Positions 3,301 through 50,930 of a stretch of DNA of 64,000 nucleotides are shown piece after piece. The translations under genes and the position numbers were made by a program. Location of the stretch: positions 65,068,533 to 65,132,532 of the forward strand of contig OX485804.1 of assembly GCA_950295325.1 (NCBI GenBank), read 5' to 3'. Every line of letters begins with the position of its first letter. The stretch's first letter is position 1. Under the pieces are notes generated by a model. It was not told the DNA's origin. It ran no database searches and saw only the letters and a list, made by a program, of their open reading frames with translations. Source of the stretch: Polytrichum commune. Taxonomy: Eukaryota; Streptophyta; Polytrichopsida; Polytrichales; Polytrichaceae.

Positions 3301-6300
3301 AGAATGCTGCCTTTCATCACGGAATAGTACCTGGATTTGGCTATAGAACAACAAAGAAATGGGGAGCAATAAGGGAAGCAAGCTCCTTTACACATCGGGA
3401 TAGCTTGAACATGATTAGCATAAGAGGATGGCATGTCCATCTTGAAAAGAAAAGGAAGATCTTAATGCACTGAATGTGAAGCACAAAGATACAGCTACAA
3501 TATTTTTCTGCTAAGAAGAGCCATGACTGCTCCCTTCTGCTGGAGAATAGTCTTAAGACAAGCTATGGATAGGGGGCGGAATCACCTTGAGAACAGGAAA
3601 GAATTACCTCTACTGGCCACTGAATATCTTAAGGTCTAATGCACGAAAGGGAGAGTACAAAGACTTGGCTACAATATTTTTTTGCAAGGGGAGCAATGAT
3701 TGCAAAATCTTCCCTTTCCATAGCTCTTAGACAGGATGCTCAGAAGAGATTGAATACAAGAAGAGATAAAGACAAAACTCTAGCTGTTTGCTGAGTTCTG
3801 AAGGTCTGGTGCACCGAAAGTAGAGTACAAAGACTTGGCCACAATCGCTTTTAAAACGGGCTGATAACTATGTGTTGGGTGACATCATCAGGCAGAGCTT
3901 TTCATAATGAGGATGGCACGAAACAGTGGCATCATTGGACTGGCAGGCATGGCATTCGTTTCTCATTTTTATTCCAGGTGGCCAACAAGAGACAATCAAA
4001 CAGGATTGTTGTTGGTGAGGCCTCTGCTGCAGTTCACGAAGCAAGACCTATACACAGTATGTTCAGTCCACAACTATTCCATTTGAGACATATCTACAAG
4101 CTTGTCAGCTCACCTATCCTCACTCCTGATTTCTCATGTCTCTCTATTTCCATTTTTTCTATTAAAATTAGAAGCCTCATCCTTCTCTGTGTGAGTTTTT
4201 TCTTCAGCTATAACCTAATCTTTTTAGCTCAAGATCTTCTCACCTTTTTTGTTCTGCTACAAAATGTGGTGAGACTTGAACTGTGAAAATGGACAAACAA
4301 TGAAACTATTGATGTGCCTTCTATGTGGTATCAACAGGTTTGCAGAAATGCAGGACAGGAGTGGGTTGAAGATCCTACAAACATTAATCGCACATTTGCA
4401 CGCAATCGTATACGCCAAGCTTTGGCAGACCCTCTATACTGTAAGTTGAATGAGTTCCACCTATGTTTGCTACTTAAAGATATTGCTTGCTATGCTTTGC
4501 TCCTTGTAAACACAGAAGTTGGAAATGCCAAAATTCTGTTATTGCATGTTACCTGTAGAAGAAAGCTGATTATGGCATTTTTTTTTTACTTCCTGGTGCT
4601 TCTGCTGTCTGTATCCAGCTGAAGCAAATCAGCAGATACATAATTTAGTAGCTGCTTGTCGGAAAACACGGTCTGTACTTGACAAGGAGAGGGACAAAGT
4701 ATTGGCTAAAGCAGTGTCAATCTCTAAAGTAAGTTTTCGTGCTCTCTTTCAATTTTAATAGTTGATGTGGGGCAACTTTTGGTTGTTCATGCATCCAAGC
4801 AACATATATAAATAGAGGCAGATTTCTCATTCAGCATCTGCTTGTAAATTGTCTAGATTCATTTAATATATGTCTAACCTGGATTTTGAATCGGAATGTG
4901 CAGGACTTTGCTTATGCTGCAATGAACGTCCCACTCCTTGCATCAAATGATGTTAGTGATGCAGTGCTTGCCAGAGTGTTGGTGGCCATATTGCAGGCAT
5001 GTTCTTTTTGCATCTGAAGTCTTGTGTCATTCTCTACTTTTAATGTACAGAAGTGTGTGAGAAGTTTGGATCTGCAATTGCTCAGTGACTGGAATGTCTG
5101 CTGTTATTGCTGGTGACTGGAAACTTGACACTCCTTGTCTTGGCCAATGGCTTTAGTTCATAGCACAGAAAGATAAGCCTCCTCGAGGAAAAGCACTGAA
5201 GAGTTTGATGGAAAAAATACGACGGCCGCCATTGAAGGTACATTTCAATCTGCAAATCTGGACGTCTCTATGAGTGGCCAGAGGAAGATAGCTGCCTCTC
5301 TATTGGTGGTCAAGAGAGAGCATTGCTCACTATCTTTGCGAGGCCGTCTTTGTAATCAGTTTCTATTTGGGATCAGTCAATATTTTAGGACTTGGCTAGT
5401 GCATTAAATTTTTGCATGGGAGCAGTGTTTTTGATTTATATGCGACATGTGAGGTGGAATCATACCTATTCTGTTTTGATTTTTGGTGTGGACAAACATA
5501 ATGTAAACACTTACTATACTTCAATGGTGCGGAAACCCTCCAATACCAGAAACTTATTATATTAAAACTAAAAAACAGGTTGGTTTTTATATTAACACTT
5601 GACTGGAGGTCACTAGAAAAAGGTTGTTTCAGTGCACACCTGGATCACGTTTTTCCTGTAGTCTCCATTGTCCTGCATTAGCAAGCACTTGTAGTCAAAT
5701 CTCTCCAGTATATTGATTGCTGTTGACTCTGAATATGCCTCATGAAATTGCAGGAAGCCTTTACATTAGCTGGCTGCCATGTCTCCCCTGTTCCAGGATC
5801 CAAAGGTTATAGGCTTATGGTATGCTTGTCTCCTGACTCCCCCACACCTGCAACGTCATTAGAATTAAGTCCATGGGAGCCAAGTGCAATGCAAAATTTG
5901 GATACATGCAACTCAGAGAAGGTGCAACCTTCTCTTACTGAAGAGGCAGATTTTGAAGGGAGTACAATTCCTATACTTGATACTCGGGATGGGGCGCCGA
6001 GCGTTTTGGCGCAAGGGAAAGAGCTTGGACTAGTATCAGATGCTGTCACAGAGTTGCTGAAATCCTTAAAGATTGAAATTGCAGCAACCATGAGTAAGAC
6101 TGTCGAAGATGGGAGGTTAGTTGAAGCAAATGAAAAGGAAATACCGTTTGGCCAGGACAGCAGGAAACAACTTCTCCCGTTTAAGAAGACATGCTACTTC
6201 ATGAACCGCTATTTGGTTTCATGGTCACCAAAAGTTGTAGCTCCCACATCAAATCAGTCGCTTTGTATGACTTTAAGTGGTGATGAAAGGGGTCGATGCT

Positions 6301-6909
6301 GTTTAATGCGAGAGCAACCAGATGCATGGGTTCGGAACTACAAGGAAACCGACTGGAAACAACTTTCCCAAGTGCTGAAAACCAGTTTTGCTTCTAAGCG
6401 GCAGGACAAAGTTTCTAGCTGGTGTGTCTATCAATATGAAAATGATCTATACGGTGGCAGTGAAGAGAGGAGGCAACAGATGCAGTTAGAGCATGAAATG
6501 CGTGCTCCAAAAAGGGATACAAGCAAGAAGCCAAAAAATCCCAAGAGAAAAGAAGAGGCACCAATATATTGTGGTGGGATTGTCACAGCCAAGGCCCAAC
6601 GAGCTCTAGCACTTCTTAAACATATTCCAAGGCCTGTTAGGAGGGGTCTCCCAGTACTTGTTAATGCTCAAGGCTTGCTATTGGCATTCCCGGTACGTGT
6701 TCTGCAATTTATGAATCTTCGATGAGAATGAACACATGCATTGATTTCAGAAGCCTTATTGTTGCAATGGGGAGTGAGGGACTCACTGTAGGATGAATTG
6801 GATGTTGGATGTGTAGGCTCTTGGTTTTCAGCGTTGCCCTTGGATTTCTGTATCTGCTGTTTTCCACCCTCGAACACCAGTTGGTGGTGGTTGGGCATCT
6901 TGGACATGA
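330..6909 (+). CDS. tilS: tRNA(Ile)-lysidine synthetase (TilS/RSY3-like), 11 exons
   Basis: TilS ligates lysine to C34 of the CAU-anticodon tRNA-Ile so that it reads AUA; plant nuclear versions (Arabidopsis RSY3) are thought to act in plastids. Exons I can place: 330-438, 1328-1497, 2813-2916, 3041-3116, 3892-4056, 4338-4440, 4619-4728, 4904-4996, 5157-5237, 5754-6692, 6817-6909, giving about 680 residues in frame. The PP-loop SGGPDS is at about residues 41-46, GHHADDQAELF at about 147-157, and VEDPTNINRTFARNRIR at about 218-234. A long C-terminal part (from about 338) ends in GLLLAFP plus the conserved last exon with PVGGG. The exon 2/3 junction is uncertain: a second donor at 1511 looks natural for the protein but leaves no in-frame AG acceptor. 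Intron 8 is GC-AG (GC at 4997). If the last intron is retained, translation stops at 6725. No transit peptide is evident after the only in-frame ATG. Confidence 0.9.
567..1270 (+). repeat. Tandem repeat of about 168 bp in TilS intron 1
   Basis: Units begin near 567, 881, 1048 and 1216. Each starts with a GTGATAG(G/A)TTT-like stretch, then AGAGGAAGCGGTAGA, then TCACATGTTGCTTTTGAT and ATGATCCGTGGAG. The first two starts are about 314 bp apart, roughly two unit lengths, so an intervening unit may have decayed. The repeat stops just before the exon 2 acceptor. Confidence 0.75.
3230..3870 (+). repeat. Diverged tandem repeats in TilS intron 4
   Basis: The related segments GGTCTGAAGCACCAAAAG (about 3240), GTGAAGCACAAAGATACAGC (about 3475), GGTCTAATGCACGAAAGG (about 3632) and GGTCTGGTGCACCGAAAG (about 3804) recur. 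Several are followed by CTTGGC(T/C)ACAAT. The spacing is about 160-235 bp. Together they fill most of the intron between exons 4 and 5. Confidence 0.6.
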
Positions 6910-13333: not shown

Positions 13334-16300
13334 ATGGCCAGCCATAACAATCTGCAAGCGATTCGGTACAGCCGTGGTAGCCTCCAGCTTTTGGACCAGG
13401 TATGTGCACAGTTTGATGGCAATGTGGGGGAGGAATCTCTGATGTTTGGGACTTGGGTCACCGAAAAGATTCAATTTTTGGGATGTGGGCGGTGAGTCAA
13501 GCGGGGAGTTCGTCAGAGTGTGAATTGTTTCTGGCAGGCGTCCGTCCTGCGCCAGCTTCAATTTGCAGCTTGATCAGAGAAAGCTAATGTTTTTAATTAT
13601 TTTCTGATTTTTTGAGAGAATCTCTCTGTGTGCTGCGATCCACATTACTTCATCAATATTTTGCGTTGGTGGGTTATGTGAGGAATAGGTATGTGTACGT
13701 TTGATGGCAATGTGGGGAGGAATCTCAGCTCATTTCTGAAATTTGGGTGTCGGGTCGCCATAAGAAGTATAATTTGGGGAGGTGGGCGGTGGATCAAGCA
13801 GGAGTTAGTCAGAGTGTGAGAAAAGCTGTTTGTGTTGGATTGGGTCGCTCTTTTGATCGATAGAAACGTGCTTTGAGAGAATCTCTATGTGTGTGTGCTG
13901 CGATCCGCATCACTCCACCGATATTCTGCGTTGGTAGGTTATCTGAGGACATGGGCTATCACGTAATGTTGGACGTTTCCATTACGTGAGGACTCATAAT
14001 TTGTGAAGAATTCAGGAAGTTACACCCCTTTCAGCAATAATTGGTTGGGGTGATTTCAGGGTTTAAGGATTCTGACTGATGTGTGTAAGGAATTCGGCGT
14101 TGAATGACAGAGGAACAGTTTAGATCATCTTACAATGTAGACAAGAGAAATCTAGAGAGAATTCAGCCTCTACGATCAACCTGCCTCTCAAAAGGGCAAT
14201 GTAGGACCTTGAAACACAAGTTACCAAGCGGAAAGGGTTTATATTGTTGTGAACTTGCTGACGATGAATTTTTGGGTAAAATTGGGGGTGTTTCTTTCTA
14301 CCAGCGTAAACTGCCCCATGAAACCATCTACGTCGACATCAAGAATTCAGAGGACGGGTGGTAAGTTCCAGCCCAAATAAAGAAAAAAAGAAAACCCTCC
14401 GGTTCTTGCACGTGTTGGCTGAATTTGGTTATTATTCTTTGAGTTGTCTGGTTTTTCAGTTGTGTGAAATTTGATTGAAGCACTGTAATGTCATTTATGA
14501 TGGCAATGTCGAATGCAGGAATGCCATCAGAGACATGGTTGTTCGTGGCGCACCTGCCATCGCCATAGCTGCTGCTCTTACCCTTGCCGTAGAAGTCGAA
14601 AACCTGAGACCTTTTTCTGGAACCGGAGAAGAGGCTGTTACTTTCTTGCAGAAGCGTCTGGATTATCTTGTCTCCAGGTCTGACCCTCCCTCCTGCCACC
14701 AAAAATCTGCTACAAAACATATATGTGTGCAAAATTTGTTGATCACGGGTTGGGCCTACTTCTTCCAAAACCCCAGCCATTACCTGTTTCCTGGCTTTCA
14801 AGAACACAATTTCAGAGATTTTGTTAGTCAAGAACTACCATACATGAAAACAGAATTGGAGGTCTAAGATTAACAGTCAAGTAGAATCAGACAACATCTG
14901 GAGGAAGAAAAGGGAGTTTGTTGCGACCACTTTATATTATCTACTAATATCAGGGATCTGCTTTCTGTATGAGAGCAGTCGTCCAATAGATGTCAACCTT
15001 GCTGATGCTGCCACAAACTTTGTTAGCTATTGTTCAACTTTGTCAGCTGGTGGCTACAAAATTTGGTGGTCATAAGTTGGCCAAAGTCTTCCAAAATCTA
15101 GGCTCTCCCTCTTTTCTACCTTTGAGTAACACAATGGGATTATAAGTCTAAGATCAACAGTCAAGCAGAATCGGGCAGTCTCTGAAAGAGGGATTTTGTT
15201 GCATCAACTGTTTTTTACTAATAATATTAGGGATTTGTATTCTCTGTGGCCGCAGTCGTCCAACAGCTGTCAACCTTGCAGATGCTGCCACAACTTTATT
15301 AGCTCTTGTTCAAGAGGCAGCCGATGAAGGAGCCGATGCCGAGTCAGCATATCAGGTGAGCACATGATTGCAGATCAATTCAAACAATAGTGCTTTTGAT
15401 TGGGAAGAAATCGTGGTCTTGACATGTGCCTAACCTTTGGGAGATTGGTTGCAAGGTTGGTCCCTCTTTGGTTGGATACAATTGTCCGTTTCAACACTGA
15501 TTGGAAATGTGGTTTTAAGCCTTACAAAATCTTCGTCTTGGATTGGAGTTGAAATTGACATTTCTATCTGAAAAAAGAGGGACCGATGTTGAAACCTAGC
15601 TCCTCAAGGTGAGGCAAATGTCAAGGCTGAAAGTCTTTTACCTTGGCACGCCGAATTCCGTTTCCAAAACGGCATCCTTGAACTTTTCTGCGCAGACATC
15701 TAGACAGTCCTATCGATCTTGAAATTGTGGATGTGGTTTTTGCATCTACAGGCTTACATGGAGGCTTCAGAAAACATGCTGGTTGCTGACATGGCCTCCA
15801 ACAAGGCCATTGGAGCCTTTGGAGCAGATGCTTTGTCAAGTTGGATGGGATCAACAACACCTCCTGCACGCAAAGGCATGCGTGTCCTCACGCATTGTAA
15901 TACTGGCAGGTGGAAACCAGCATTGGTCTTGTATGTAGGTGTATGCATGGGTATCAGTAATCAACATCAATAATGCTATCAAAGAACCTACCTGTGGTTA
16001 TCAAAATTGTAATACCAGTGAAATACTGATATTTGGTGGGTATGTCAAGGTAGTAGAATCTTTTTATACCTGAGTTATTATTTGGGTCAATATCTTTCTG
16101 AACCACATTGATACTAGGATGATTTTGCCCAGGTATGAAGGTTCTTGCATGGTATATACACCCGAATGGTATTGAAAACAAAATTTACTGTCAAATACCC
16201 ATACACTACTGGTATCAAAAAAATGTGAAATTTTCATTATAGATACCCGATTGATATCAAGAAAACGGTTCCCTCCCTTGTTGACTATTTGTTTGGGAGA

Positions 16301-19300
16301 TTCATATCCACAGTTGCTCTTTGTGCGACCTGGGTTCTCAATGTTGGCTGAGATGCTTTAAAATGCTAAATATTAGGCAGCATTAGATCACCATGTACAC
16401 ATGACCCTCCGTACAGATGTGAGTGTCTTTGAATGACATACTGTGTACATTAATTGTTGTATATCAGCTTGGCAACATCTGCATATGGGACAGCCTTGGG
16501 AGTCATTCGTGCGCTGCATGCACAAGGAAAGCTTGAGACCGCTATTTGTACAGAAACACGTCCTTACAATCAGGTTTAATATTTGGTGTTCCACTATTTT
16601 TTTGAATTTTTTTTCTGTTTCGTTGTCCTGGAAAGGTAATATTGTTTGTCAGTTCACTGTGAGAAGCTGCCAAAGTTACTGAAAATCATTTTGGTAATCT
16701 TATCAATTAATGATGGTCCCTGAAATTACTTGCATGTGAAGGTCATACTGTGGTCTTCACTAATCTTCCATCAGGGAAGCTTATGTCCTTCCTGTTGTTT
16801 ATGTATCAATTATTGTTGTCTGTTGTATAGAAGGTTTAGTTTATTTCTCATAACGTTTGATAGTATCATATCATTCGAGTGTCTTTACCTTTTGGTTTAA
16901 GAATGGAGGTCTTTAGAGTGCCTGTTAGGTCAAGTATACTTCTACACTTGCTGAGCAGCTTCTTCATATGTCTGTCTTTAATTGTGTTCTCCATTTTTCT
17001 GGTAATTGGGATTGTTGCAGGGGTCAAGATTGACTGCGTTTGAGTTGGTACATGATAAGATACCAGCAGTGCTGGTAGCTGACTCTGCTGCAGCTTCTTT
17101 GAAATCATTAGGCCGTGTTGATGCAGTCGTTGTTGGGGCAGACCGAATTGCAGCCAATGGTAGGTGTTTGAATTTCCACTTTCTCTGGGAACTTTGTTGT
17201 GGAGGTTTTGTGGCTCGATCTCTGCTTCTTTCATAACTTTTCTGTTTTCTTGTTAATTGAGGCGATGAACACATCACAAACTTTTGGAGCTGGAATTATG
17301 ATGTAGAAACAATAAATTGTTGAAATAACATCATACATATCTTGTTAATGCGTCATGATTTCCTCATTTTTGTTTAACATGTGCCACATTAGGCTTCTAT
17401 GAAGCAAATTGTTACGTTAGAGTAGGACATACATTATAAGATAATTACATTATACACCAGTAGGTATAATTTAACACGACTCTTTGGAAAGTTGTGATGC
17501 ATACAAATCATGTCTATATTATTTCAATTTCATCATGGCTAGAATACGCAATGCAGCTTTCACAAAGGCAATTCTGCTGATGTCGCTTTTTTTCTGTACA
17601 GGGGACACAGCAAACAAGATAGGGACATACAGTCTGGCTCTGTCAGCCTTCCACCATAATGTACCATTTTACGTAGCAGCACCTTTGACTTCCATTGACA
17701 CCGCGATTCAGTCTGGAAAGGAAATTGTGATTGAGGAGAGGTCACCAAAAGAGCTTACCCACACACATGGTGGGCACGGTACACAAATTGCTGCACACGG
17801 TGTTGGTGTTTGGAACCCTGCTTTTGATGTCACACCAGCTCGACTCATTACCGGTATCATTACAGACCAGGTAAACTCCCCAAGCTTGTTCTCAACATGG
17901 CATAAATTAAGAGGGCCTAATTTGGTTACTTATTTCAATCGTCGGACACCTGTATTTGAGTTGTGTGTAATTGGACTGGTGTGGATATAATGACGAACCC
18001 CAAGTAGACACATGTGTTTCAAGAGGTTGGACTACATGCTCAAAATTTTGTTAACTACTCCAGGTCCATTAATCAACATAATATTGGGGGGACTTATATG
18101 AGCATCCAAGAAGAAAGAGAACCTTCACTTTGATAATGATTAAGATACTCAAATGAGCTCCAAAATTGTGTGGACTTGTATTTGCTAATCCACTTGTACT
18201 AAGCGGGCATTTCATACCCTAGGAGAAGTAGGTGCAGAGCTCAAAGTGTCTGTTACAGGCCCACTTACCTTACATCTATCAGAATGCTTGTTTTTGTCTT
18301 GGGTCTAAGAACTCTTCATGTGGACTTGTTTTCAGTCTGTGGAGTGAACTCAGTATTTGTTGTTGTTAATGGCAGGGTGTGATCACAAAAGACAAGAACA
18401 GCGATGTCTTTGATATCCAGTCCTTTATTGCAAAAGCCACCAAAGGAGAAACCCCTAATGAAGCTGGGAAACCAGACCTTGAATCAGAGCCCACCATTCC
18501 AGTGGATTTGAATGGGCCAGCTGTATGTGGACGTGCTATGGGTGAAGATTTGCATTCTTCTTTCAGACCATTGAATGAGGCAGTGGTTGCGGACTATGTG
18601 AAGAACCAATCTCATTTGGCAGATATTTTAGGTGGAACAAGCACAGAATGGAGCATCAAGGAAGTTGGAGACGGTAACCTAAACTATGTATACATTCTCG
18701 TTGGTCCAAAGGGGTCCTTTGTTTTGAAGCAGGTATGCATTGAACTAATTGATCTATGTTTTGTTTAATAGCACTTTGTGGTTCCCAAGTACACATCAAA
18801 CTAGTTTGAACCTGTGCCAGCCCAGTCTGTTGCTCCTGTGCATACAAATTTAAGTTCCTGGCCCCGTCAATGGCTGGAGCTGCGGAACTGCAATAATGTC
18901 AACGCCCATGCACACTCACTGTTCCAAAATGTATAGTAGACTAGTACAGGCCCATGCCGTCTGTCCTGGCCCCATGCACCCATCCATATAAATTAATATC
19001 CTGGGTTATCCCGCACTGTCCACTCAATAAGTCTTTGTAGACAGCCAACTGGTTTTGGAATGGTGATTGCCTGATTACCTGTGCAATCACCGTTCAACCT
19101 TTCTAAAATGTATAGTATATTGATGAATTGATGTGAGTTTGGTTTGATATAAGCACTTGATGGGTTCCTCTCATGATTCCTTTTTAAACTTGTTATGACC
19201 TCTTCATACATGAGCTTAAATATGAATTTGTGTTTTGCATGACAGGCTCTACCCTATGTGCGGTGTGTTGGTGAATCTTGGCCAATGACAATTGAGCGAG

Positions 19301-21533
19301 CCTACTTTGAAACCACTGTGTTGCGTGAGCATGGAAGGTGGGCACCGGACCATGTGCCAGAGGTTTATTACTTCGACCATCCCATGGCGTTGACTGTCAT
19401 GGAATACTTAGAACCGCCGCACATCATTTTGAGAAAAGGCTTGATTGCCGGCGTAGTGTATCCTCAATTAGCACGAGACATGGCAAAATATATGGCCTCC
19501 ACTCTCTTCAACACTTCTTTGCTGGCGGTCTCCACTCTGACACATCGGGAAGCAGGTACCCAGCAGTCAATGAGTTTCCAGAACTAATAATCACTGTTTT
19601 GGTATTGAGTTGAATACATGAGGTGCATGTTGTTGTACGTCTTTGTATTCCTAAGTTCATGGCCGACCTGTCTCATTTTCCTTGCTCGTGCATCTTTTTA
19701 GAAAGAGTAATTTTGCAAAATAGTTCAGTTGATGCAGTGATGTGCACCTTTTAAGGTAGTCCCTCGATAATCTTAATCATGAAAGTTGCACTTTATTGTG
19801 GATTTTGCTTGCAGTGGCAATATTTTGCGGCAATATTGAAATGTGTCGGCTAACGGAGCAAGTCATTTTTACGGAGCCCTACATGGATGCTTCCAACAAT
19901 AGATGGACGTCACCACATCTTGATGCTGATGCCCAAGCTCTACGGGAAGATTCAGATGTCAAAATTGAGATTGCCAGCCTCAAGTCAAAGTAAGAACTTA
20001 GTACATTAAGACCGTTAGGGCTCACTTGCACTCTGTTGTATATAGAGAGTAACATGTACAGTGCATTAGGACATGTCATTTGTCAAATTCTGTGGATTTG
20101 TTTATTAATTTGATTGAAGGAAGGATCTATTCTTATTACCCTTGGAAGCCATTACAGTCATCATTGTTTTTCTATGGCATGTTTACTGAATGATGAGTAT
20201 GGGACATGTGATGACAGGTTTTGTGAAAGAACACAGGCCCTGTTGCATGGGGATTTACACACAGGATCCATAATGGTCACGCAAACATCCACAAAATGTA
20301 TTGATCCCGAGTTTGGCTTTTACGGGCCAATGGGATTCGATGTGGGAGCGTTCCTTGGCAATCTGATGCTTGCATATGTGTCTCAAGATGGCCATGCAAC
20401 TGCCAAAGATGACCGAGAGGTACTCAACTTTCTTTCTAGACTGCGTCAAAAATGAAGTCCATCTTTTTTGTTGGTTGGCGTAGTGTAAAAGTCAGCAGGC
20501 CAGTGATGCATTTAGAGAGAAGTTACATATTTTTCTCTGGTATAAATTTGCAAAAATCTCTCCCATTTGTTGTGGTTTTCCAGGAGAATAATGAGCCGTT
20601 GTACACATGTTGCATCACAGGGGTACAAACTCTGGTTATTGAAGACAATAGACCAGACGTGGCGACTCTTTGCAGAGGAGTTTGTTTCTCTTTGGGACCG
20701 AAATTGGGGTGCTGGGGATGCATACAAGAAGGAAGTTTACAATACAAAAGAACTGCAAACACGCGCGCAGAAATCATATATGTCTGAGATTTTCCAGGAC
20801 AGTCTTGGCTATGCTGCAGCTAAAATGATCAGGTGAACCATTGTACATACTTCGAAGCAAGCAAACTTTTATTCCAGCCTAGGCTAGTCAGTGCTACAAT
20901 TAGTATGACAAGTTGGAGTGTGGCTTAAACCCAAGGCCTTAACCCGGATTCCATGGGAACTGAGGCTAAGCCGCCAAAGCCCGGGATAGTGCTCGGATGG
21001 GTGACCTTTGTAGCACTTGATTTCCAGTGCACCCTACCATCTATGGTCATAGTGGGGGTATTCAGGTGAACTGGATCTTTCTATCAACCATGTGGGAACC
21101 TAGGGGCTTGCCCTTGGGGGGATAGATGCCAGACGGCTTGTCCATGCCCTGTCAAGGAGTTCACCTTCAAAAGGATGCAATAGTTGTTGGGGTCCTTCTA
21201 ATTCTCATAATACTTGTTTCAGGGTTACATATAGACTTGGACCAACTCGAAAATGAAGCGACACCATAATGCATGCTGGTGGCAACATCAAATTTGTCTT
21301 TCTTTTCTTTGCTTTCTTCTTTTCTATGACAAGTTTGTGCTAATAGCTTCCCTGGCCCTTGTTACAGGAGAGTGGTCGGCATTGCTCATGTCGAAGACTT
21401 GGAGTCTATTTCTGACTTGGAGAAGAAGGTCCAATGCGAGCGCCGAGCTTTGAACTTTGCCAAGCATCTGTTGATAGGGAGGTCGGAATTCACCGACATT
21501 GGGCAAGTCTGTAATGCTCTGCAGGCTAGTTAA
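13334..21533 (+). CDS. Fused methylthioribose-1-phosphate isomerase / methylthioribose kinase, 14 exons
   Basis: Exons: 13334-13399, 14305-14360, 14519-14677, 15256-15355, 15752-15909, 16468-16573, 17021-17159, 17602-17870, 18376-18732, 19246-19555, 19815-19989, 20218-20419, 20621-20832, 21368-21533. All introns are GT-AG, phases agree, and the product is 824 residues. The N-terminal part (about 1-375) is [15 protein letters not shown], catalytic-type Cys176 in THCNTGS, and [10 protein letters not shown] with Asp263. A hydrophilic linker (about 376-411) follows. The C-terminal part (about 412-824) is MTNK: the nucleotide loop [28 protein letters not shown], the catalytic-loop Asp644 in HGDLHTGS, and DPEF at 661-664. 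Exon 9 encodes both the MTNA C-terminus and the MTNK N-terminus, so the fusion is in one exon. Kinase and isomerase are consecutive methionine-salvage steps after MTA nucleosidase. No targeting peptide is seen, so it is presumably cytosolic. All key motifs look intact. Confidence 0.96.
13400..13960 (+). repeat. Tandem duplication in intron 1 of the fusion gene
   Basis: The sequence after the exon 1 donor (TATGTGCAC, TTTGATGGCAATGTGGG, GTGGGCGGTG, TCAGAGTGTGA) is repeated from about 13690. The stretch GAGAGAATCTCT, GTGCTGCGATCC, TGCGTTGG(T)GGGTTAT occurs at about 13615 and again at about 13875. The period is about 265-290 bp. Confidence 0.75.
14868..15255 (+). repeat. Intron 3 duplication carrying a decayed copy of exon 4
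   Basis: A block beginning GTCTAAGAT(T/C)AACAGTCAAG occurs at about 14863 and 15147, and each copy leads into an exon-4-like end. The upstream copy (from about 14987) has GAGCAG as acceptor, then TCGTCCAATAGATGTCAACC, then TGATGCTGCCACAAACTTTG. It soon diverges and meets a stop, so it is a pseudo-exon. The real exon 4 is 15256-15355. Confidence 0.8.
20944..21036 (+). repeat. 5S rRNA-like sequence (5S-derived SINE or pseudogene) in intron 13
   Basis: Within the last intron of the fusion gene, CCGGATTCCATGGGAACT, GAGGCTAAGCC, GGGATAGTGCTC and CGGATGGGTGACCT follow in the order of the 3' two thirds of plant 5S rRNA. The box C region of the internal promoter is almost unchanged, while the box A region is altered. 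The 5' third is not recognisable. About 200 further bases may be the body of a 5S-derived SINE (SINE3 type). No second copy is visible in this window. Confidence 0.75.
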
Positions 21534-22442
21534 TAGGATTCTCTTAAACATCCACAATCAAAATAAGGCCCTCATTTCCTGCTGTCAAGGGCAAAGTTTC
21601 TGTCCAGCAAGTGCTAGAGGCTCATGGTGGCTTGGGATTTGTATTGTGGCAGTTGCTTGCCGGTACCCATTGTTATAATGGGCACACTGAGCAGGATCAT
21701 ACAGCTTCAATGTGCTGTCGTTGACTGTATGGATTGGTCACTCTTTGTAACGTATACAAATTCTACCTTTGATCCTTACCTACTTTGATTACAAGATGTG
21801 TTTCTCCTTCAAAGTCATGACTTGGGAGACACTTTCTGGATCCAGCCAAAACGTCTGGAATGCCAAGTTTCCGTTTGAACACCTACCATATATGTTTGGA
21901 AGAAGACACCTCCCGGAAGATAGAATGTATGCCTACACTGTTACCTAGTAAAATGGAATCAAGGTAAGGAAGAACGGGTTCCCATTCACGGTGGTGCTGA
22001 TAAAAGTCCCTATATTATTTTTATGTATTTGGAAGAAGAATGCTCCAAGGATAAGTTTTTTCCAATACAGTTTACATTTAACATCTTGACATGCCAGTAA
22101 AGCACGTCTTAAGATTTTGACTACGAATATTGATAATTCATAATCATAACAAGGTACAATTTAAAGAAATTTGAAGAAAGGAAGACTACAATTATTATGT
22201 GTAGAAGGGATGTAGAAGTGGTGACTAATAAAGTTAGCTAATAGTGCATAGTATTGTAAAATGTAGTCTTCCTTCACGCACAAGTGACTTGACCAAATTT
22301 TGCACTTTAATTTTTATCTTATTTCTTTGATTGGAGAGTCTCAATGAAAAACATATGGTTTTTAATTGAACGAGGTATAGTATTCTAAGAAATGACTAAG
22401 GATGAAGTTATCAACAACAAAATATCCCCAACTTGAGGGGCT
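21534..22442. other. 3' flank of the fusion gene
   Basis: This holds the presumed 3' UTR of the fusion gene, then AT-rich sequence with no recognised feature. Confidence 0.4.
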
Positions 22443-22581
22443 GATCACACCAACTACATTTGGCACCATCCATCGGCATCTCCGATCGTATAAGTGTGAA
22501 AAGTGGTGGGCCATCATCTATTCATCAACATAATCCTTAGTAATTTTATAGTTGGAACCGGTTGGAAATGTTGGTGTGATT
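22443..22581 (-). mobile_element. MITE of the GATCACACCAAC family, copy A
   Basis: It is bounded by GATCACACCAAC at the left and GTTGGTGTGATTG at the right, an imperfect terminal inverted repeat. The interior, read on the minus strand, contains GATGGCCCACCACTTTTCAC and CGGAGATGCCGATGGATGG, shared with the copies near 36.6, 57 and 60.7 kb. It is followed by a (CT)n run at 22630-22655. Confidence 0.75.
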
Positions 22582-22659
22582 GGGACTTGAGACTCTTGTC
22601 AACGAAGGTAGTTTAAGCAAAGGAACTCTGTCTCTCTCTCTCTCTCTCTCTCTCTACAT

Positions 22660-25600
22660 CTTGAAATCTTGAAATCTGGTTCCAAATATACCCTTACGGG
22701 CTGCCCGTGAACAAAAAAAGAAAAAAACAGAATATAAAAAGACGACGAGAATGGGCAAGTCTGTGTGACCCCCTGCTTTCAATACTAGGATTCGGATACT
22801 TTCTGCCTGCAAGTGCTTCTGCTAAGAAGAAGTGTCTCTGAGATGAGACTCTGCAAAACAGGGTAGGAAGTAGAATCTGTGACGCTTACAACCAGCATTA
22901 GACAGTAAGCACAGAGTGAATGGGTGGTGCTTAGAAGATAGCAGTGAAACGAGTCTGGTCCTAACCAGAAGTAACACAGTCTATGTTCGGAGAAATCACT
23001 GCAGCTTCAAGATGAGCAAGACTCACTCATCTGAGGTCGAGTATAAGGTGGTGATATATGACTACACAGACTATACTATGATGGATAAACTGTACCTGAT
23101 ATCTTGCTATAATACTTTGGTCTACACAATTCTTGATAAAGCGCATGTATATATCAATCTTTTTTACAATATATGTAGACTAAAATGAATATTACCTATT
23201 TCTAAAGAAGTAGAATAGCCTTGTTGACATCGATAACAAGACAAGAGGTCCATTAACACCTGTTGTACGCTTTACTAACCTACTATATGTATGTTTGGGG
23301 AGCATGGGCACAGGTGAGGACCTCTTCTACAAGCGCTATATGCTTTCCGAAGAAGTGGCCAACTCATTGCAAAATTTCAAGATACTTCTCTTCGAAATAC
23401 TGGAATATTGAGTTTATACTTCATGACAAAAATATTCTAATATGTCTACAATCTGATTGATACCCGTACTAGAACTTCCAAAAATAATATAGTCGGGATA
23501 TTAGTACATGCTTGTGTAAACAGTGACCAATAAATTGCAGGAATATCTTGAAATATTACCCTGCTTCTTTTCAGTAGCCAATAATATACAGTGTATAAAG
23601 AGACTACTGTAATATTGAATAATATCAGTAGTTAATCCATCTGTACTCTTAAAACGACTATATGAACGTTAAAGTGTACAATGCTTCTTCTAAGGAAAAA
23701 AGGTGTTACTGATACCATACTCTGTAAACTAACCATGTAAACTGGTTGCTCAAGATTGAGGAAAATCGAAAACACTTATCCGTGCATTTTCAGTAACCAT
23801 GTGAGAGGAATTGATGAACTATTGGAAATAGTGATTCAGAAGAAATTCTTATCCTCTTCCTATCTGTCTGATAGCTAGAAGAGAGCCAACTACACAAAAC
23901 AGTTTGTCAAATCAAGTGATTCCGAAAATACTTACATCTCATAACATGGATATTGACTATTTGAGAAATTAGGTGAAGAACGGAACTCATGTATACATCT
24001 CTTTCAAACATATGAAGAGATTTGTAATGCTCATATGGCTGGAGTTGTATATAATAAGAGATATGATTACAGGGACCCACTATGATAATACTGGTTGCAC
24101 AGAGTTGCTAACGGTACAGAGGACACTTACACCCTAAGCCTTTTTCGGTGACCATCTGAGAAATATCAATGTAAAGGAAAAAGTGATTAAGAAGAAAACT
24201 CATTTCCTTTACTTATTCGTTTGCTGATCAGAGGAGATCTAACCATATAAAAGTATTTTCGAGTTTACAGATTTCGAGAATACTAATACCGAATAAATTG
24301 ATGGGCATGTGTTGAAGATCTGTTACCCTGAGTATTGAAAATGTGTCATATTCTGTGGAATGCAGTCCAATCCAACAGTAAGTAGTCACTGCAGAATGTA
24401 TAGTTTACAGCAGTAAACTGAGATTGTTATGATTACGGCATAAAGGAGTATATACCCCTTCGTTGGGATACCACTGACCGGTTGAACACCATACATCTTG
24501 ACAGGCCTATATCACTTTGTGTGAACTAACAGAAGTGACTACATATCTCTGATGAAAGCAGAATAATATGTATATACAATACAGGAATAGATTGCTGAGA
24601 AAAATCCAGATAACTTGGAAGTATTGAACCATTCTTGATAGTCAAACTTGAACAAGTACTGACAAAAAAGAAACTACACCAGTATACAGGGAAATATGTA
24701 TGATAAAGTACCACGTGATTATCGAGACCCTGCTAACTGAAGGGATGTATGTTGTCATTAACTCTACATGACATAACTCTATGATAGTGATTATATATCC
24801 TATTTTAACAAGAGTTTAATCAGGACAAGATTAGTCAGCTCTATACTCTGTTTTTTACTTTGCCATATGTAACTAGCACAACCTTTTAAATATAACCCCA
24901 AAAGACTATTTACTTTAGGGCTCGAAAAGGTACATTTAGAAAATATCCACCATAGATCTAGCAATATGCATCTACGGACAATGATGTTTACCTAATCCTA
25001 TATTAAGAGACAAGGGCCATGAGAGCATCCTTTTCAAAGGTTAACCCGCATTGGTAGTTTACCCTAAGTAACTTTGGGGATTAGTGTAAAGTGAGTGGGA
25101 TTGTGGAACGTGCATGTAAACTGCCTCAAATCTCCAACACTCAAGTTTCAAAATGGCTAAGGAATAGGTAGAGTACTCAATGGTAGTATTGGATGGATAC
25201 TACCATTGAGTATGCATGGATACAAAATGTTTGTGTAATTATTTGTGTGACATAAATAACAATTGGCTTCTGTTATTCACCTCATCTACGTCACTAACCC
25301 TCTCTTTGGATTTGGTTGGTGGCATGCACACATGTGAGGCAGACCCTTCACAACTTTGACGGCTTTCTTAGGTTTTGTATACCATCTTATTGCAAAAATA
25401 GGATGTATAATGTACAAATATTCTACTAAATAATGTGGAATACAAGACATCTTTGAGTAGTCTTTAAACCTTGAAAGTTAGTTTCAAAATGTTTAAGAAT
25501 ACCTTTTTTGAGTTTAATTGGGTACATCCTAGACATGGAATGCAAATCATCATGTAAGGGTGCAAAGGTTACAACCTTAGTAGTTCGATGCTCAACGGTT

Positions 25601-25830
25601 TAACTTTGTTAGATACATACCAAGATGAGATAGTTATAAATGTATAATGATAGCTATGCAATGATATGACCATGAGGGATGGTCCCACCCACCCTCCCGG
25701 ATTTTGAAAGGTACATAGATATGTAAAAGAATGGTTTGGCCTATGTACAAGAGGATGTATTAAGAAAAAGATATGCTTGAATGTAAGCATAGATCTCTAC
25801 TCAAGAAATGTCCAACTCTCTCTCGTCTCA
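22660..25830. other. Long gene-poor stretch with diverged repeats
   Basis: No gene recognised. Between about 23.75 and 24.45 kb, two related blocks about 355 bp apart share CAGTAACCATGTGAGA / CGGTGACCATCTGAGA, AGTGATT(C/A)AGAAGAAA and CGA(A/G)AATACT. They suggest an old, strongly diverged tandem repeat. A run of 22 G (25831-25852) lies at the right end. Confidence 0.4.
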
Positions 25831-25916
25831 AAGGGGGGGGGGGGGGGGGGGGAGTTTTATCGGTACTCGTTACAATAAGTTATCGGGAAGAAATGTCCCT
25901 CCAGGAACCCGAGTGC

Positions 25917-25938
25917 GCCACGTGGCTCCCACCTTATC
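25917..25938 (+). promoter_or_regulatory. G-box and I-box upstream of psaL copy 1
   Basis: GCCACGTGGC (25917-25926) is a perfect G-box core, followed by ACCTTATCG (GATAAGG on the other strand), an I-box. Both are typical light-response motifs of plant photosynthesis genes. They lie about 210-230 bp before the psaL ATG. The same pair is present upstream of psaL copy 3 and missing upstream of copy 2. Confidence 0.65.
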
Positions 25939-26146
25939 GAGCACCTACGGCCAGCCAACCGGATAGAATGCTACACTTGCGCTTCCGTTCGAAGATCGCG
26001 CTCGCTCCCGTAGCTCCTCCGCACGGGACGATCCCATCTTAGCTCACTTCTTCCGACACCGGCATCTCATCAGCTGCAGCAGACCATCGAAGCTTCAGCA
26101 ACGAATTGCTCATTTCTAGTTTCCCCCAGCAATCCATCCATCAGAC

Positions 26147-26809
26147 ATGGCGGCCGCAGCCATGACCCGCGCGGGAGGCCTCATGGCCATGGAGCGAGTG
26201 TCCAAGGTCTCCCACGGCGGAGCCAGCAGCAACCGGGCGTTCCTCGGCAATGTGAGCTCCCTGCGAGCTGCCCGCCCCGCGCAGGCGGTGCAGGCCAAGG
26301 CCCTGGGCGTCAGGGCTGAGAAGTACCAGGTTGTGGAGCCTCTCAACGGCGATCCCTTCATCGGAGGCTTCGAGACTCCCGTGACCAGCAGCCCCCTCGT
26401 CGCATGGTACTTGTCCAACTTGCCCGCTTACCGCACCGCCGTGTCTCCCTTGTTGAGGGGAGTGGAGATTGGGCTTGCCCACGGCTACTTGCTGGTGGGG
26501 CCCTTCGTTCTAGCTGGACCTCTGCGGAACTCCGTGGTGAGGGGAGAGGCCGGTGCCCTTGCCGCCGGTGGCCTCGTTGCCATCCTTACCATCTGCTTGA
26601 CCATCTACGGAATCGCTTCGTTCAAGGAAGGCGCCCCCTCGTTGGCACCCAGCCTTACGTTGACAGGAAGGCAAAAGACGGCCGACAAGCTGCAGACGGC
26701 TGAGGGATGGGCTAGCTTCGCTGGAGGTTTCTTCTTCGGTGGGCTGTCCGGTGTCTACTGGGCGTACTTCTTGCTCTACGTGGTCAACCTCCCTTACCCC
26801 GTGAAATAG
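26147..26809 (+). CDS. psaL: Photosystem I reaction centre subunit XI (PsaL), copy 1
   Basis: Nuclear-encoded PsaL, 220 residues, no intron. Residues 1 to about 56 form an Ala/Ser/Arg-rich chloroplast transit peptide, with cleavage likely near [10 protein letters not shown]. The mature part has [18 protein letters not shown], then three membrane segments at about 102-124, 136-156 and 188-213, and ends LPYPVK. In plants PsaL lies on the PSI edge next to PsaH, PsaI and PsaO, where LHCII docks. ATG 26147 starts the typical MAAAAM leader; the later Met6, Met13 and Met15 are less likely. It differs from copies 2 and 3 by a single residue (Thr178, Ala in the others). The upstream region has a G-box and I-box. 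Confidence 0.97.
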
Positions 26810-28529
26810 GTTATATTTGTCGAAATTCTTGCTCAAGCGGGCGATTAGATTGTGAGCAACTTCACATTGTAAACTGGCATCAGTGGCATGGCAACAAGCT
26901 TCTCCTATGTTCATATTCTTTCCTCTTACCTCTGTTATTTGCTGCCATTGTTCGATAATCGCTGGGGTTTGAAACACTTTTCAGAGAGTCCAGTAGGCTC
27001 AATTGATTTAAAATATTGGGCAACCTACTTCAATGAAGAGACGGTTATCCACACCTGACTGTTTTCATACAAAGTGTTATCTTGTGTTTCTGCATGGCAT
27101 GTGAAGTGTTTGGACTCCAAAAGTCTAGGGATTATAGTTACCGTGAAGCTGTATGATTGGTGGGCTTTTCAAGGCCACATTGCAGAATCTATGAAATGTG
27201 GGATGTTGTGGATTATGTAGCTAGGGTGGTGAGCATTGATAGGTTACAAGCTTCGGTGATTGTGCCATTCTGGGGAGAGTCTGATGTTTCGTGGGAATGT
27301 GCATTAGCAGATGTTACGCAGTAGATAGGGCAGTCCATTCTTGGTAGTGATATCATCCTTCGCGAGATTCAGCAGAACAGATTCTAGTGTGCTCCTTCCT
27401 ATGTGGTATTTGGGTGTGTGACCTTACTGCGGGACTTCCAATTCCACAGACTATCTTTGATCACTTGATTGGAACAAGAATCTGACATTCGGTTGGCATT
27501 TGCGAATCTCGAAGATTGTGAGCTCAAGTTTCAGAGTTGGAGTTGAGATACAAACGTTCAAAGTGAAGAGTCTCTTTGTCTTTTTCTTTACGTGATTACA
27601 TAGGCATTCTTAATTGTGTTGACAATTGAACGGAGAATGGGGTCTATATTATGAGCAGATAGTTCTATCTCATAGGAACACGTGCCTTTTTGGTGTCTGT
27701 GCTTGAATACAAGCCTTGCCTTACATGACTGAAATACATAAATGTGTTGGATATAAACTCACATACGTTATGTCTAGATTTTGACAAATGAGAATGAAAG
27801 TACGTGTCTCGATGTTTGCGCTACATTAGTATTCATATGGAATGCCTGGGGCAGGGGAGGGTGGGTCATATAAAGCATGCAAGAGATCTGTTACAATTGA
27901 CCATTACACTCAAACGAGTATATTGATTTCTGTCAAATCAGAGGTCCGCTCAATCTTTTAGCCGGTTGTGTGCAGTTCAAAGATTGATGAATTTGTGAAG
28001 ATAATCAGACAGGGAGGTGAAGCATTCGGTTGTCTCAGTGTTCAGGTTAATTCTGCTGTGTATGTATAAATCGAGATCTCAAGACCATTCACAGGAGAAT
28101 TTGTGGTCTGATGCTTTTACGCTTCTGACACATTTCAGTGCATCTGTTCGATGCTCTCAGATTCAATCCCGCTATGAGAAGGTTGAGTGAATCATCGCAT
28201 CAAGGTGTTACATACGATGGCATTGATATGGAATGCGTTCATGGTCGTATGTTAATGTGCCATTTGACTAGTGTCAACCTTTACAGGCCTGAGGGGTAAA
28301 ATGTTATATGAAAAACACTATCGAAGCGACTTTTGAGAAGGGTTGTTCTGATGAGAAAATTGATATAATTAGTTTGATTTACATATACTGAACATTGGTG
28401 GAATTTTTCCTGCACAGTTTGATTTGAAGTGAACCAAAATGTCTCTTGATGTGAGGACTTCTTGAAGTACGGAAGATATACCATTCATGTAATTTTATGA
28501 TCTCCGAGGGGGCCTCACCACGTGAAGCT
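26810..28529. other. 3' flank of psaL copy 1
   Basis: Presumed 3' UTR and downstream DNA, homologous to the 3' flank of psaL copy 3 over about 1.5 kb and to that of copy 2 over a few hundred bases. No other gene is recognised. Confidence 0.5.
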
Positions 28530-28552
28530 ACACTAAATATGGTATTTAGTGT
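28530..28552. repeat. 23-bp palindrome, copy 1
   Basis: ACACTAAATA, three bases, then TATTTAGTGT: a perfect 10-bp inverted repeat. Related copies occur at 28864-28886, 35755-35777 and 56748-56770, with a half copy near 28940. Confidence 0.75.
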
Positions 28553-28863
28553 CAGTATGGTAACTTTTTGGATAACACCTCTTATGAATATGTGAACAAA
28601 TACTGTCATGGATGATGGACGAGTTCATAAGTTGGCCAAAACTCTACCTTCTCACGTCAGCAACTTGTGATGAAAAATCGTCATGGATTTTTCAAATCCG
28701 GATGTCGCGATTACTTGGTAAGTGACAGTAATTGCAATACTGTAAATGTATAATCCCCAAGAAATTCACAAGGAACAACAAATATTGTTGGGTTAACATT
28801 TAGTGTTGGTGACACTACACTGCAGTTTACAATTAGTAGTGAGCAAGGCAATCAGAATTGGCG

Positions 28864-29000
28864 ACACTAAACACCCTATTTAGTGTAGTTATGCGAGTGT
28901 TAGGGAACTAGTTTGGTGGTTTTTGAAAATCTGATACATCCTATTTAGTGTAGTTATGCGAGTGTTAGGGAACTAGTTTGGTGGTTTTTGAAAATCTGAT
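28864..29000 (+). repeat. Palindrome copy 2 followed by a 65-bp direct repeat
   Basis: ACACTAAACA-CCC-TATTTAGTGT is at 28864-28886. Starting inside it, a 65-bp unit (28875-28939, beginning CCTATTTAGTGTAG) is repeated almost exactly at 28940-29000. It ends each time in TTTTGAAAATCTGAT. Confidence 0.9.
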
Positions 29001-29300
29001 GGGTGTCTTCAACCGCAGTTTAGTTGATCTCAAGTGATTTGTTTCTGGAACATCAACATTCGTCGAAAACTTATCCAATTTCTAAGTTTAGTGCAGCTCT
29101 GAAAACTCCTCAGCTATACTTCCACCAATGCAAGTAATTGAACAGACTCCAAGTTTCCCACTATTGCCATGTGGGAGTAAAGCTCCCATTGCCCCGTGCT
29201 CTTAGTGAAGAGGTGATTGAGGAGCACCCAGCTACACAAACTTCTGCATGTTGATAGTGTTGAAGTGTAATTTACTCAGCCCGGGTGCTCAATACAGAGC

Positions 29301-30140
29301 ATAACATTATTAACCCTTAAATGCTCATGCAACCTGAAATGGGTCGTCACCTAATATTCCAATGCAGTTTGCGACCCACTAGATGGCGATCTATGTGAAT
29401 GGAAGGTATCTACTTGTATAAGGTGGTGTCCACTACCATGTGGGTTAAAATAACAAATAAAAGCCTCAAACTCCAAGCATGTAGGATTTTTTGTTAGGTT
29501 GGCATTGCTTGTTTGGGAGGCGGTTCCAAGTGTTGCCCAATTGTAGGAGCCAAATTTAGGAGCCAATATCTTTCACATATGATGCCTAGTTTGGGCGGGG
29601 TTTTCTTTCCCTTAGGACAGGGTGGTTGTTGTGCACAACTTGACCGGATGGATTTGGGAAAAAAATTGGTGCACACATGCTTGCTCCATGAATAAGGGGA
29701 AATCTCCCAAAATGACCTCATGTGGCCCCTCCAACTTTGAGGATGACCGACTTCATCTAAACTTGCTCAAACAAACCCAAATTCTTTAGAGCAGCTCATT
29801 TGTCATCCATATGGCATATAATCACAAAGTTGCCAACTTTCTTAATTTTGTGGCATGACCGAAATGGTCATGAAAAAAAAAAATAAAAAAAAAAATAGAG
29901 TTTTCTCTAGCTACCCCCCCCCCCAAGATGAAGGTCCTGTTCATATGACAAGTTGACCTAGAAAATGTGGTCCGATTGACTTCAAATTTTCACATAAAAC
30001 ATATAATATGGTAGTCTAGTTCACATTTGTATGGTTGGATTTTCAGGTCACATAGTATGTTTTTCTACATAGTAGAAAGTTCGAGCGTTGGTGCAGGAAA
30101 TGCCCCAAAATGGAATGTGAAGGCTTGAACGTTTAAGGGT
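29301..30140. other. Intergenic, nothing recognised
   Basis: AT-rich DNA with A and C homopolymer runs near 29870-29925. No gene or element was recognised. Confidence 0.35.
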
Positions 30141-30144
30141 TATG

Positions 30145-30905
30145 TAGTGTGCTTTTGTTCATGGTTGTATTCTCAATTTTTTTATGATTTAGCCTTCTTA
30201 ATTTGAAAATCCAACTGCAAGTAATGTGCTGATTTTAGGTAATTCATTTTTAATATTTTAAATAATGTTTTCTCCTTTCACAAGTATTCATACATTCAAA
30301 CTAATTAAACCCAATTAAAATTAATTGAGTATAATCAAGTGAAAGTCCCAAGCCTAATTTGGTGCCTACTATGCATGTAGATAAATATGGCAAGTCTGAG
30401 CATTATATCACACTAATCATAATAATTTAGCCTAATTACGCCAAATTAAATCAGAAATTATGCTTACTAATCAAACTACTAATCTATATTTAAGGCATTA
30501 ACTAAATAAGCTAATTGAATATAAAATTGCATACTTAAACTAATTGTGATCTAATTGAGAAACTTGCATTGATGCGCTTAATTGCACTTGCTTAGGTTTC
30601 ATTACGCTTAATTAGGTTTAATGCACTTACTTGCACTGAACTGGGCTTAATTAGTTTGAATGAGTATGAACACATGTAGAAATTTAGGCCTTGAGCTTGA
30701 TTACGCTTTTATTACGCTCAATTACTCTCAATAACTTGTAATTGGATTTAATTAGTTTGAATGTATGAATAATTGGGAAAGGAGAAGACATTAAGCAAAA
30801 TATTATAAAATTGATTAGCTAAAATCAGCACACTATTTTAAGTTCAATTTTAAAACAACAAAGGCTAAAGCACAAAATTATAACCTCAATGTTCATGAGG
30901 ACTTT
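30145..30905. mobile_element. Long-terminal-inverted-repeat (foldback-like) element
   Basis: The left 200 bases and the reverse complement of the right 200 bases align. Shared blocks include ATGATTTAGCC / GTGCTTTAGCC, GTGCTGATTTTAG, TTTTCTCCTTTC / CTTCTCCTTTCC, CATACATTCAAACTAATTAA and CAATTA(A/C)AA. The central part (about 30360-30690) is rich in CTTAATTAGG-like segments. There is no reading frame. The ends are set by loss of similarity and are approximate; I could not define a target duplication. Confidence 0.75.
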
Positions 30906-31859
30906 TTAATATTTGCATCCTCCAAGTTAATTATGTGCTTTGTTAATAATTTTCTTTTGGAATGAAATCCTAGTCAATTTTTTATTTACTAAGTGGAAGT
31001 AAACATATATGTTGGATTTTGGACCTTCAAGGTGAGGTGCACTCAATATGTGTTTTGTGGACAAGCAACCTTCAAGAATGCAAGGGCAACTTTTTTCGGT
31101 TAGGCTTAAAAAATTTGAAATTTTGTTAGGGGTTGGCTAAGGGGTTGCGGGTCATGGGCCCCGGCCCTTATCCAAACCTAGACCCCCCCCTTAAAAGTTC
31201 GTAGGGCGAGGTGTAGCGTCTACTGTCAATAAATTGCATGTTTTACTTTTAATGCATGCCAAATGGTGATAGTCTAGTTCATGACCATTGGAGTAAGGCG
31301 TTCCATTGCCCACATGGGTTTTGACCCGATTTACATGTCCACAATTGGTTGTGGTGGCCCTAGAGCTAGCCACTCCCTATAAGGGGCTCCAGGGTAATGC
31401 ACCCAAATGGGCTCCCACAACATGCATATTTTTTCACTAGATTTTTTTTTCCCTTCATAGGCCTCTAACAATGGATGCACTACACCACAACATAAGGCCT
31501 AGTATGCCCTCCCTGCCAATAGGCCTATTAGCCCTTATTGCCTCGTCCAATTTCACCTTTGCTTCAATGCATCATTACACATGCCACATTACTCCATGTT
31601 CTTCCACACATTCCTCAGCCCTCCACTTCTTCTCCTCAAATTTTTTTCTTTTTTCTTTGCCTTTTGATTTTTTGTAATCTTGAGGTTGGCCTTTCTCTCC
31701 TCTTTTTCTCGAGCTACCTTCTTCTGTCTCTCTTGCTTGTATTCTAGAGCAACTAGCTACTTACCCCTCGTCATTATTATAGGGTTAGAATAGTCTAAAT
31801 GGGGTGTCATTGCTCCCTTGAGGAATAACCATTGTTTGCGAAAGTCTCAAACTTGATCT
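30906..31859. other. Intergenic, nothing recognised
   Basis: No supportable gene. Short reading frames on both strands have low-complexity Ser/Leu/Phe-rich translations. Confidence 0.35.
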
Positions 31860-50267: not shown

Positions 50268-50930
50268 CTATTTCACGGGGTAGGGGAGGTTGACAACGTA
50301 GAGCAAGAAATAAGCCCAGTAGACACCGGACAGCCCACCGAAGAAGAAACCTCCAGCGAAGCTAGCCCATCCCTCAGCTGTTTGCAGCTTGTCGGCCGCC
50401 TTTTGCCTTCCTGTCAACGTAAGGCTGGGTGCCAACGAGGGGGCGCCTTCCTTGAACGAAGCGATTCCGTAGATGGTCAAGCAGATGGTAAGGATGGCAA
50501 CGAGGCCACCGGCGGCAAGGGCACCGGCCTCTCCCCTCACCACGGAGTTCCGCAGAGGTCCAGCTAGAACGAAGGGCCCCACCAGCAAGTAGCCGTGGGC
50601 AAGCCCAATCTCCACTCCCCTCAACAAGGGAGACACGGCGGTGCGGTAAGCGGGCAAGTTGGACAAATACCATGCGACGAGGGGGCTGCTGGTCACGGGT
50701 GTCTCGAAGCCTCCGATGAAGGGATCGCCGTTGAGAGGCTCCACAACCTGGTACTTCTCAGCCCTGACGCCCAGGGCCTTGGCCTGCACCGCCTGCGCGG
50801 GGCGGGCAGCTCGCAGGGAGCTCACGTTGCCAAGGAACGCCCGGTTGCTGCTGGCTCCGCCGTGGGAGACCTTGGACACTCGCTCCATGGCCATGAGGCC
50901 TCCCGCGCGGGTCATGGCTGCGGCCGCCAT
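50268..50930 (-). CDS. psaL: Photosystem I reaction centre subunit XI (PsaL), copy 2
   Basis: 220 residues, intronless, same transit peptide, helices and LPYPVK end as the other copies. The protein is identical to copy 3 and differs from copy 1 only at residue 178 (Ala). Base differences are nevertheless visible (for example AAATAAGC against AAGTACGC near the 3' end). The 5' UTR matches copies 1 and 3 to about 51047, where homology ends abruptly. The G-box/I-box promoter of the other copies is missing and an inverted psbR-type promoter module lies about 180-220 bp upstream instead. It is divergent from psbR copy 3. The start and function reasoning is as for copy 1. Confidence 0.97.

Follow-up and report, generated by a model that had tools for sequence, protein, structure and literature searches.

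A gene of the moss Polytrichum commune that joins methylthioribose-1-phosphate isomerase and methylthioribose kinase through a shared exon

Introduction

The synthesis of polyamines and ethylene leaves a by-product that is recycled by methionine salvage (the Yang cycle). Two of its consecutive steps are carried out by 5-methylthioribose (MTR) kinase, MtnK, and MTR-1-phosphate isomerase, MtnA, and flowering plants, including Arabidopsis, have separate mtnK and mtnA genes. Here, we analyze a gene, MTNAK, in which the two enzymes are joined in a single reading frame. It lies in a stretch of 64,000 nucleotides from the moss Polytrichum commune (GenBank assembly GCA_950295325.1, contig OX485804.1), which is referred to below as the window and whose first letter is position 1 of the coordinates given.

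The closest described system is the MtnAK protein of the ciliate Tetrahymena thermophila (XP_001031773, 779 residues; Salim, Negritto and Cavalcanti, PLoS Genet 2009, PMC2759508). Expressed sequence tags from both ends of one cDNA clone match both halves of this protein, and the same report names the fusion in Ostreococcus tauri, Micromonas pusilla, Micromonas sp. RCC299, and Phaeodactylum tricornutum. What is said here of this and the other cited papers refers to the parts of their text that were consulted. The wording used for the named algae, "plant species like", leaves room for the authors to know of more cases than they list. A later review names Tetrahymena alone for the fusion (PMC6302742). 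MtnBD of Tetrahymena and MtnBC of Arabidopsis are methionine salvage fusions as well, but they join other domains and belong to later steps (PMC2759508).

A sequence-only reading of the window, made without database searches, had pointed out the gene, mentioned the Tetrahymena fusion, and implied that such fusions are rare. The ciliate fusion is indeed documented in PMC2759508; the implied rarity is not supported, since prasinophyte and diatom cases were already published there. In the open-licence PMC literature, of which coverage was partial, no report of an MtnA-MtnK fusion in a moss or any other land plant was found. The fusion is, in short, already known in kind, with a green-lineage case in print, and the land-plant member appears to be new to it.

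Results

MTNAK extends from its start codon to its stop codon over positions 13334-21533 of the forward strand and contains 825 codons with a single, terminal stop. When its 14 exons were rebuilt from the sequence, they gave one frame of 2,475 coding bases (824 residues and the stop). Exons 1-7 are at 13334-13399, 14305-14360, 14519-14677, 15256-15355, 15752-15909, 16468-16573, and 17021-17159, and exons 8-14 are at 17602-17870, 18376-18732, 19246-19555, 19815-19989, 20218-20419, 20621-20832, and 21368-21533, all on the + strand; GT and AG bound each of the 13 introns. This is the same gene model, in exon number, frame, protein length, and positions, as the one that had been put forward from the sequence alone.

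The decisive part of the gene is exon 9 (18376-18732, +; 357 bases, residues 352-470), which holds the C-terminus of MtnA, a linker, and the N-terminus of MtnK, as alignments at both of its ends indicate. The 21 codons at its 5' end (residues 352-372) align with the final stretch of 2a0u, a free-standing chain, up to the last of its 383 residues, and from residue 413 the alignment is with the beginning of 2pyw, a free-standing kinase, from its residue 5. Parts of both enzymes are thus encoded by a single exon, and the part that belongs to the kinase amounts to 58 residues (413-470). The exon is open in the coding frame, while the other five frames contain 7, 7, 3, 3, and 6 stops. Both domains score far above the NCBIfam curated cut-offs, so chance is excluded. 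The earlier claims that exon 9 carries both termini, and that the locus is a single fusion rather than two neighboring genes, are thus borne out by the two alignments and by the open frame that runs through the shared exon with both domains over cut-off. We conclude that the MtnA-MtnK fusion gene is real.

The MtnA domain comprises residues 1-372, encoded by exons 1-8 together with the initial 63 bases of exon 9 (13334-18438, +), and was delimited with TIGR00512 and the alignment with 2a0u, which reaches residue 372. TIGR00512 (S-methyl-5-thioribose-1-phosphate isomerase, NCBIfam) matches residues 8-356 and scores 452.2 bits, where the cut-off is 279; the match spans model positions 1-335 of 335 and is of equivalog grade. 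In Pfam, this half belongs to the broader family IF-2B (PF01008). The best PDB matches to residues 1-370 are 4ldq (366 bits) and 4ldr (365 bits), both named MtnA, followed by 2a0u (324 bits), which was deposited as "initiation factor 2B" and which we take to be a Leishmania MtnA. In an alignment of four sequences (A2), Cys176 (codon at 15896-15898, +), which is aligned with the invariant MtnA cysteine, and Asp256 (codon at 17141-17143, +) are invariant in 4/4; both presumably have the catalytic roles of their counterparts in the Bacillus subtilis enzyme.

The identity of this half as a subunit of eIF2B was considered and rejected, as eukaryotic subunits of the eIF2B complex reach at most 53.3 bits (5b04_A). 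Some PDB chains with eIF2B names score higher than that on the isomerase half (2a0u, 324 bits; 1t5o, 220; 3a11, 108; 3vm6, 105), and these are presumably MtnA or ribose-1,5-bisphosphate isomerase.

The MtnK domain takes up residues 413-824, encoded by the last part of exon 9 and by exons 10-14 (18559-21530, +), as delimited with TIGR01767 and the alignment with 2pyw. TIGR01767 (S-methyl-5-thioribose kinase, NCBIfam) matches residues 414-821 with 481.9 bits, the cut-off being 275, over model positions 1-400 of 401, again as an equivalog; the corresponding Pfam family, APH, is broader. The closest PDB chain is 2pyw (584.5 bits; 254/409 residues, or 62%, identical), deposited as "uncharacterized protein" and, we assume, the Arabidopsis kinase At1g49820; the next is 2olc (263 bits), which we take to be the B. 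subtilis MtnK. The active-site motifs of 2pyw are the same as those of the moss kinase half, but 2pyw is a separate chain of 420 residues that has no isomerase domain. Invariant in 3/3 sequences of the kinase alignment (A1) are Asp644 in HGDLHTGS (codon at 20252-20254, +), Asp661 and Glu663 of the D-x-E motif Asp661-Pro-Glu663 (20303-20311, +), and the pair Arg770-Arg771, which straddles intron 13 (20831-21371, +). We take Asp644 to be the catalytic base, Asp661 and Glu663 to bind metal, and the two arginines to bind MTR. The catalytic roles of conserved residues in both domains come from work on bacterial enzymes. That key motifs of both enzymes are present, as had been stated, holds for the catalytic positions in both A2 and A1. 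Taken by themselves, the gene model and the identity of the two enzymes are, in our estimate, nearly certain.

The two domains are separated by a linker of 40 residues (373-412; 18439-18558, +), which is polar and has a third-position GC fraction (GC3) of 0.30. P, G, S, E, K, D, N, and Q make up 60% of the linker, versus 39% and 41% of the two domains. Within it, an internal methionine, Met406 (18538-18540, +), precedes by eight residues Phe414, the first residue of the TIGR01767 match, and has G at -3 and +4, a context resembling that of the main start codon. Met406 is possibly the relic start of a separate kinase, an alternative start in use, or a matter of chance. If it were in use, the gene would have two products, the full-length fusion and a free kinase made from Met406 by means of a promoter in intron 8 or internal initiation. 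We regard this as improbable, though compatible with the explanation preferred below: the start context and the distance to the MtnK match speak for it, whereas internal methionines are common and neither TATAAA nor TATATA occurs in intron 8, the latter being a weak argument given the many plant promoters without a TATA box.

A gene predicted as a fusion may also be a chimera, in which the assembly joined two loci or the prediction merged two neighbors; errors of the second kind are known (PMC3143110). The genome searched consists of 407.8 Mb in 64 contigs, with the window at C2:65068533-65132532. Another of its contigs, C31 (29,073 bases), carries MTNAK exons 4-14 with the downstream DNA, including the exon 9 junction. 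It was compared with window positions 15010-31983 in two stretches (16,975 bases, with one base in common; C31:1-12099 falls outside the comparison), and the identity was 100% in one (7,074 bases) and 99.99% in the other (9,901 bases). The contig terminates within MTNAK intron 3, at window position 15010. Because of the near-total identity and the contig end inside the intron, the reading of C31 as a second gene copy was set aside, and the contig is probably a redundant assembly copy. The junction thus recurs at 100% identity on C31, possibly from the same reads; both domains share one open exon of 357 bases, and the same pair of enzymes has been reported fused in other lineages (PMC2759508). 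A chimera is therefore extremely improbable, and an artefact of assembly or prediction was rejected in view of the shared exon 9 and the same DNA on C31.

In a search of the genome with PF01008, 16/16 candidates were scored and nine matches were obtained, all over the cut-off. Two of them are MTNAK exons 7 and 8, two are the same exons on C31, and the remaining five are at four other loci. The best matches of two of these loci are eIF2B-delta chains; that of the third, which has a further exon match beside it, is eIF2B-alpha; and the fourth, a short exon, matches eIF2B-beta with 38.3 bits, slightly ahead of delta with 35.7 bits. The five matches are 25-40% identical to the isomerase half over short stretches. 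To judge by these similarities, the four loci look like genes for eIF2B-delta (two), eIF2B-alpha, and, probably, eIF2B-beta. A second, separate mtnA was not seen in the genome by this search, which recovered only exons 7 and 8 of MTNAK itself. The two eIF2B-delta-like loci, at C4:37750215 and C1:73064702, may be left from a genome duplication.

Bacteria offer another comparison, as the same two activities are found there on adjacent genes (in Shinella, Sinorhizobium, Priestia, and others). Ten plasmid-borne loci were opened, chosen to spread over genera from the 93 records whose cover reached 80% or more; five of the ten are from Rhizobiaceae, 83 further high-cover records and 32 with lower cover were left out, and a set drawn from plasmids samples bacteria only narrowly. 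In 10/10 loci, mtnK is followed directly by mtnA with a stop between them, so that, unlike in the moss, the genes are separate and their order is opposite to that of the fusion. A bacterial operon that merely lost its stop codon would thus not yield the order seen in the moss, and the capture of such an operon is disfavored. The moss kinase domain is 34-43% identical to the ten bacterial MtnK proteins versus 62% to 2pyw, which fits vertical descent within plants.

A scan of a genome-contig collection, with words from six mostly poorly conserved stretches, found one relative among 20 matched stretches. This was an mtnA of Bdellovibrionales with no kinase match within 4,184 bases, and the scan says little about bacterial fusions. 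Three scans of viral contigs gave 0/3, 0/95, and 2/24 relatives, and the two relatives match MtnA only. They are on two IMG/VR contigs (L002 and L003, candidate viral sequences) and have 45% and 38% identity, respectively.

Several further features of the window were recorded. Within MTNAK, the beginning of exon 4 and its 3' splice site recur in intron 3 as a decayed tandem copy. One repeat block (14941-15016 versus 15218-15293) is 83% identical over 76 bases at a spacing of 277, and another (14855-14905 versus 15139-15189) is 76% identical over 51 bases at a spacing of 284; the repeat is probably a relic of exon duplication. Outside the gene, three uninterrupted copies of psaL (photosystem I subunit XI, 220 residues) lie at 26147-26809 (+), 50268-50930 (-), and 59630-60292 (-), with a single difference, at residue 178, that sets the first apart from the others. 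They sit in inverted repeats (1,088 bases at 99% and 906 bases at 97% identity) and appear to stem from recent duplication, perhaps with gene conversion. A psaL product of the window is identical at 146/163 residues to chain L of 7xqp, presumably from Physcomitrium patens, and this one protein would by itself suggest a moss. An open frame of 327 residues at 5742-6725 (+) has no Pfam match at E 0.01.

Discussion

Taken as a whole, the data are best explained by a bifunctional enzyme that goes back to an old eukaryotic MtnA-MtnK fusion and has been kept in this plant; judging from sequence comparison, we give this explanation a probability of about 0.75. By family membership and conserved residues, the protein should convert MTR to 5-methylthioribulose-1-phosphate (MTRu-1-P). 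The C-terminal kinase domain would make MTR-1-phosphate from MTR and ATP, and the N-terminal isomerase domain would turn MTR-1-phosphate into MTRu-1-P. Both active sites would thus be on a single polypeptide, which is probably cytosolic, with the domains joined by a linker of about 40 residues that is probably flexible. MtnA forms dimers, and the likely particle is an MtnA dimer bearing two kinase domains.

The order of the domains relative to the reactions had been described as reversed, with the isomerase first and the kinase second, and the domain positions (8-356 and 414-821) agree with this description. According to section 7 of PMC2759508, the isomerase of Tetrahymena MtnAK occupies the N-terminal 350 residues, with the kinase in the second half; the reversed order is therefore the order of Tetrahymena too. 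The two proteins are also of similar length (824 and 779 residues). The moss gene differs from the ciliate, algal, and diatom cases in that it belongs to a land plant and has 14 exons.

The sequence-only reading had leaned toward an independent origin. On that view, separate genes came together in the ancestry of this plant, and the agreement with the order in Tetrahymena is a coincidence. We consider this unlikely. The Arabidopsis genes are separate, which would fit a join confined to the moss lineage, and Met406 is near the expected start of a free kinase, as if its codon were left over from a gene that was joined recently. In the same vein, MTI and MTK, the isomerase and the kinase, are listed as two plant enzymes (PMC8137854), and the domain order of the algal fusions is absent from the text consulted (PMC2759508). 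On the other side, the same two enzymes are fused in Ostreococcus, Micromonas, and Phaeodactylum, and the order in the moss is that of Tetrahymena by section 7 (PMC2759508). The 58 kinase residues share an exon with the end of the isomerase, so that the joint has no intron, though the age of the fusion does not follow from this. The simplest account of these observations would be one old fusion held in common, and the moss gene most likely descends from an old eukaryotic fusion that has also been reported in prasinophytes, a diatom, and a ciliate.

Several points weigh against the descent of a bifunctional enzyme from an old fusion. One sentence in section 6 of PMC2759508 gives the reverse order for the Tetrahymena protein; a slip is the likelier explanation, and the detailed account in section 7 was preferred. 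The missing domain order extends to the diatom fusion, and the algal, diatom, and ciliate fusions were compared by published description rather than by sequence. The donors of 6/13 MTNAK introns (3, 5, 6, 10, 12, and 13) are far from GTRAGT, as judged by eye; they were kept as placed because the reading frame and homology fix them. Lastly, a much diverged or broken mtnA could escape the PF01008 search.

An old fusion would mean that the fused gene was afterwards split or replaced in flowering plants. More specifically, the fusion may be ancestral in green plants, having passed from algae to land plants, with MTNAK as the sole isomerase gene of the moss and with fission into the MTI and MTK of flowering plants, and a putative direct hand-over of MTR-1-phosphate between the two domains may occur. 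This fuller scenario is tentative, and we put its chances a little short of even.

The fusion is less surprising than had been held at first, and it is of interest for plant evolution. To the unicellular algae and protists in which the fusion was known, it adds a land plant. If true, an ancestral fusion that later split would be one of the rare instances of fission among the genes of core metabolism. Two questions become testable, namely, whether the separate enzymes of flowering plants arose by the splitting of a bifunctional ancestor and whether the flux through methionine salvage changes when the two steps are joined. With the moss, fused and separated forms of the enzymes could be compared in a whole plant.

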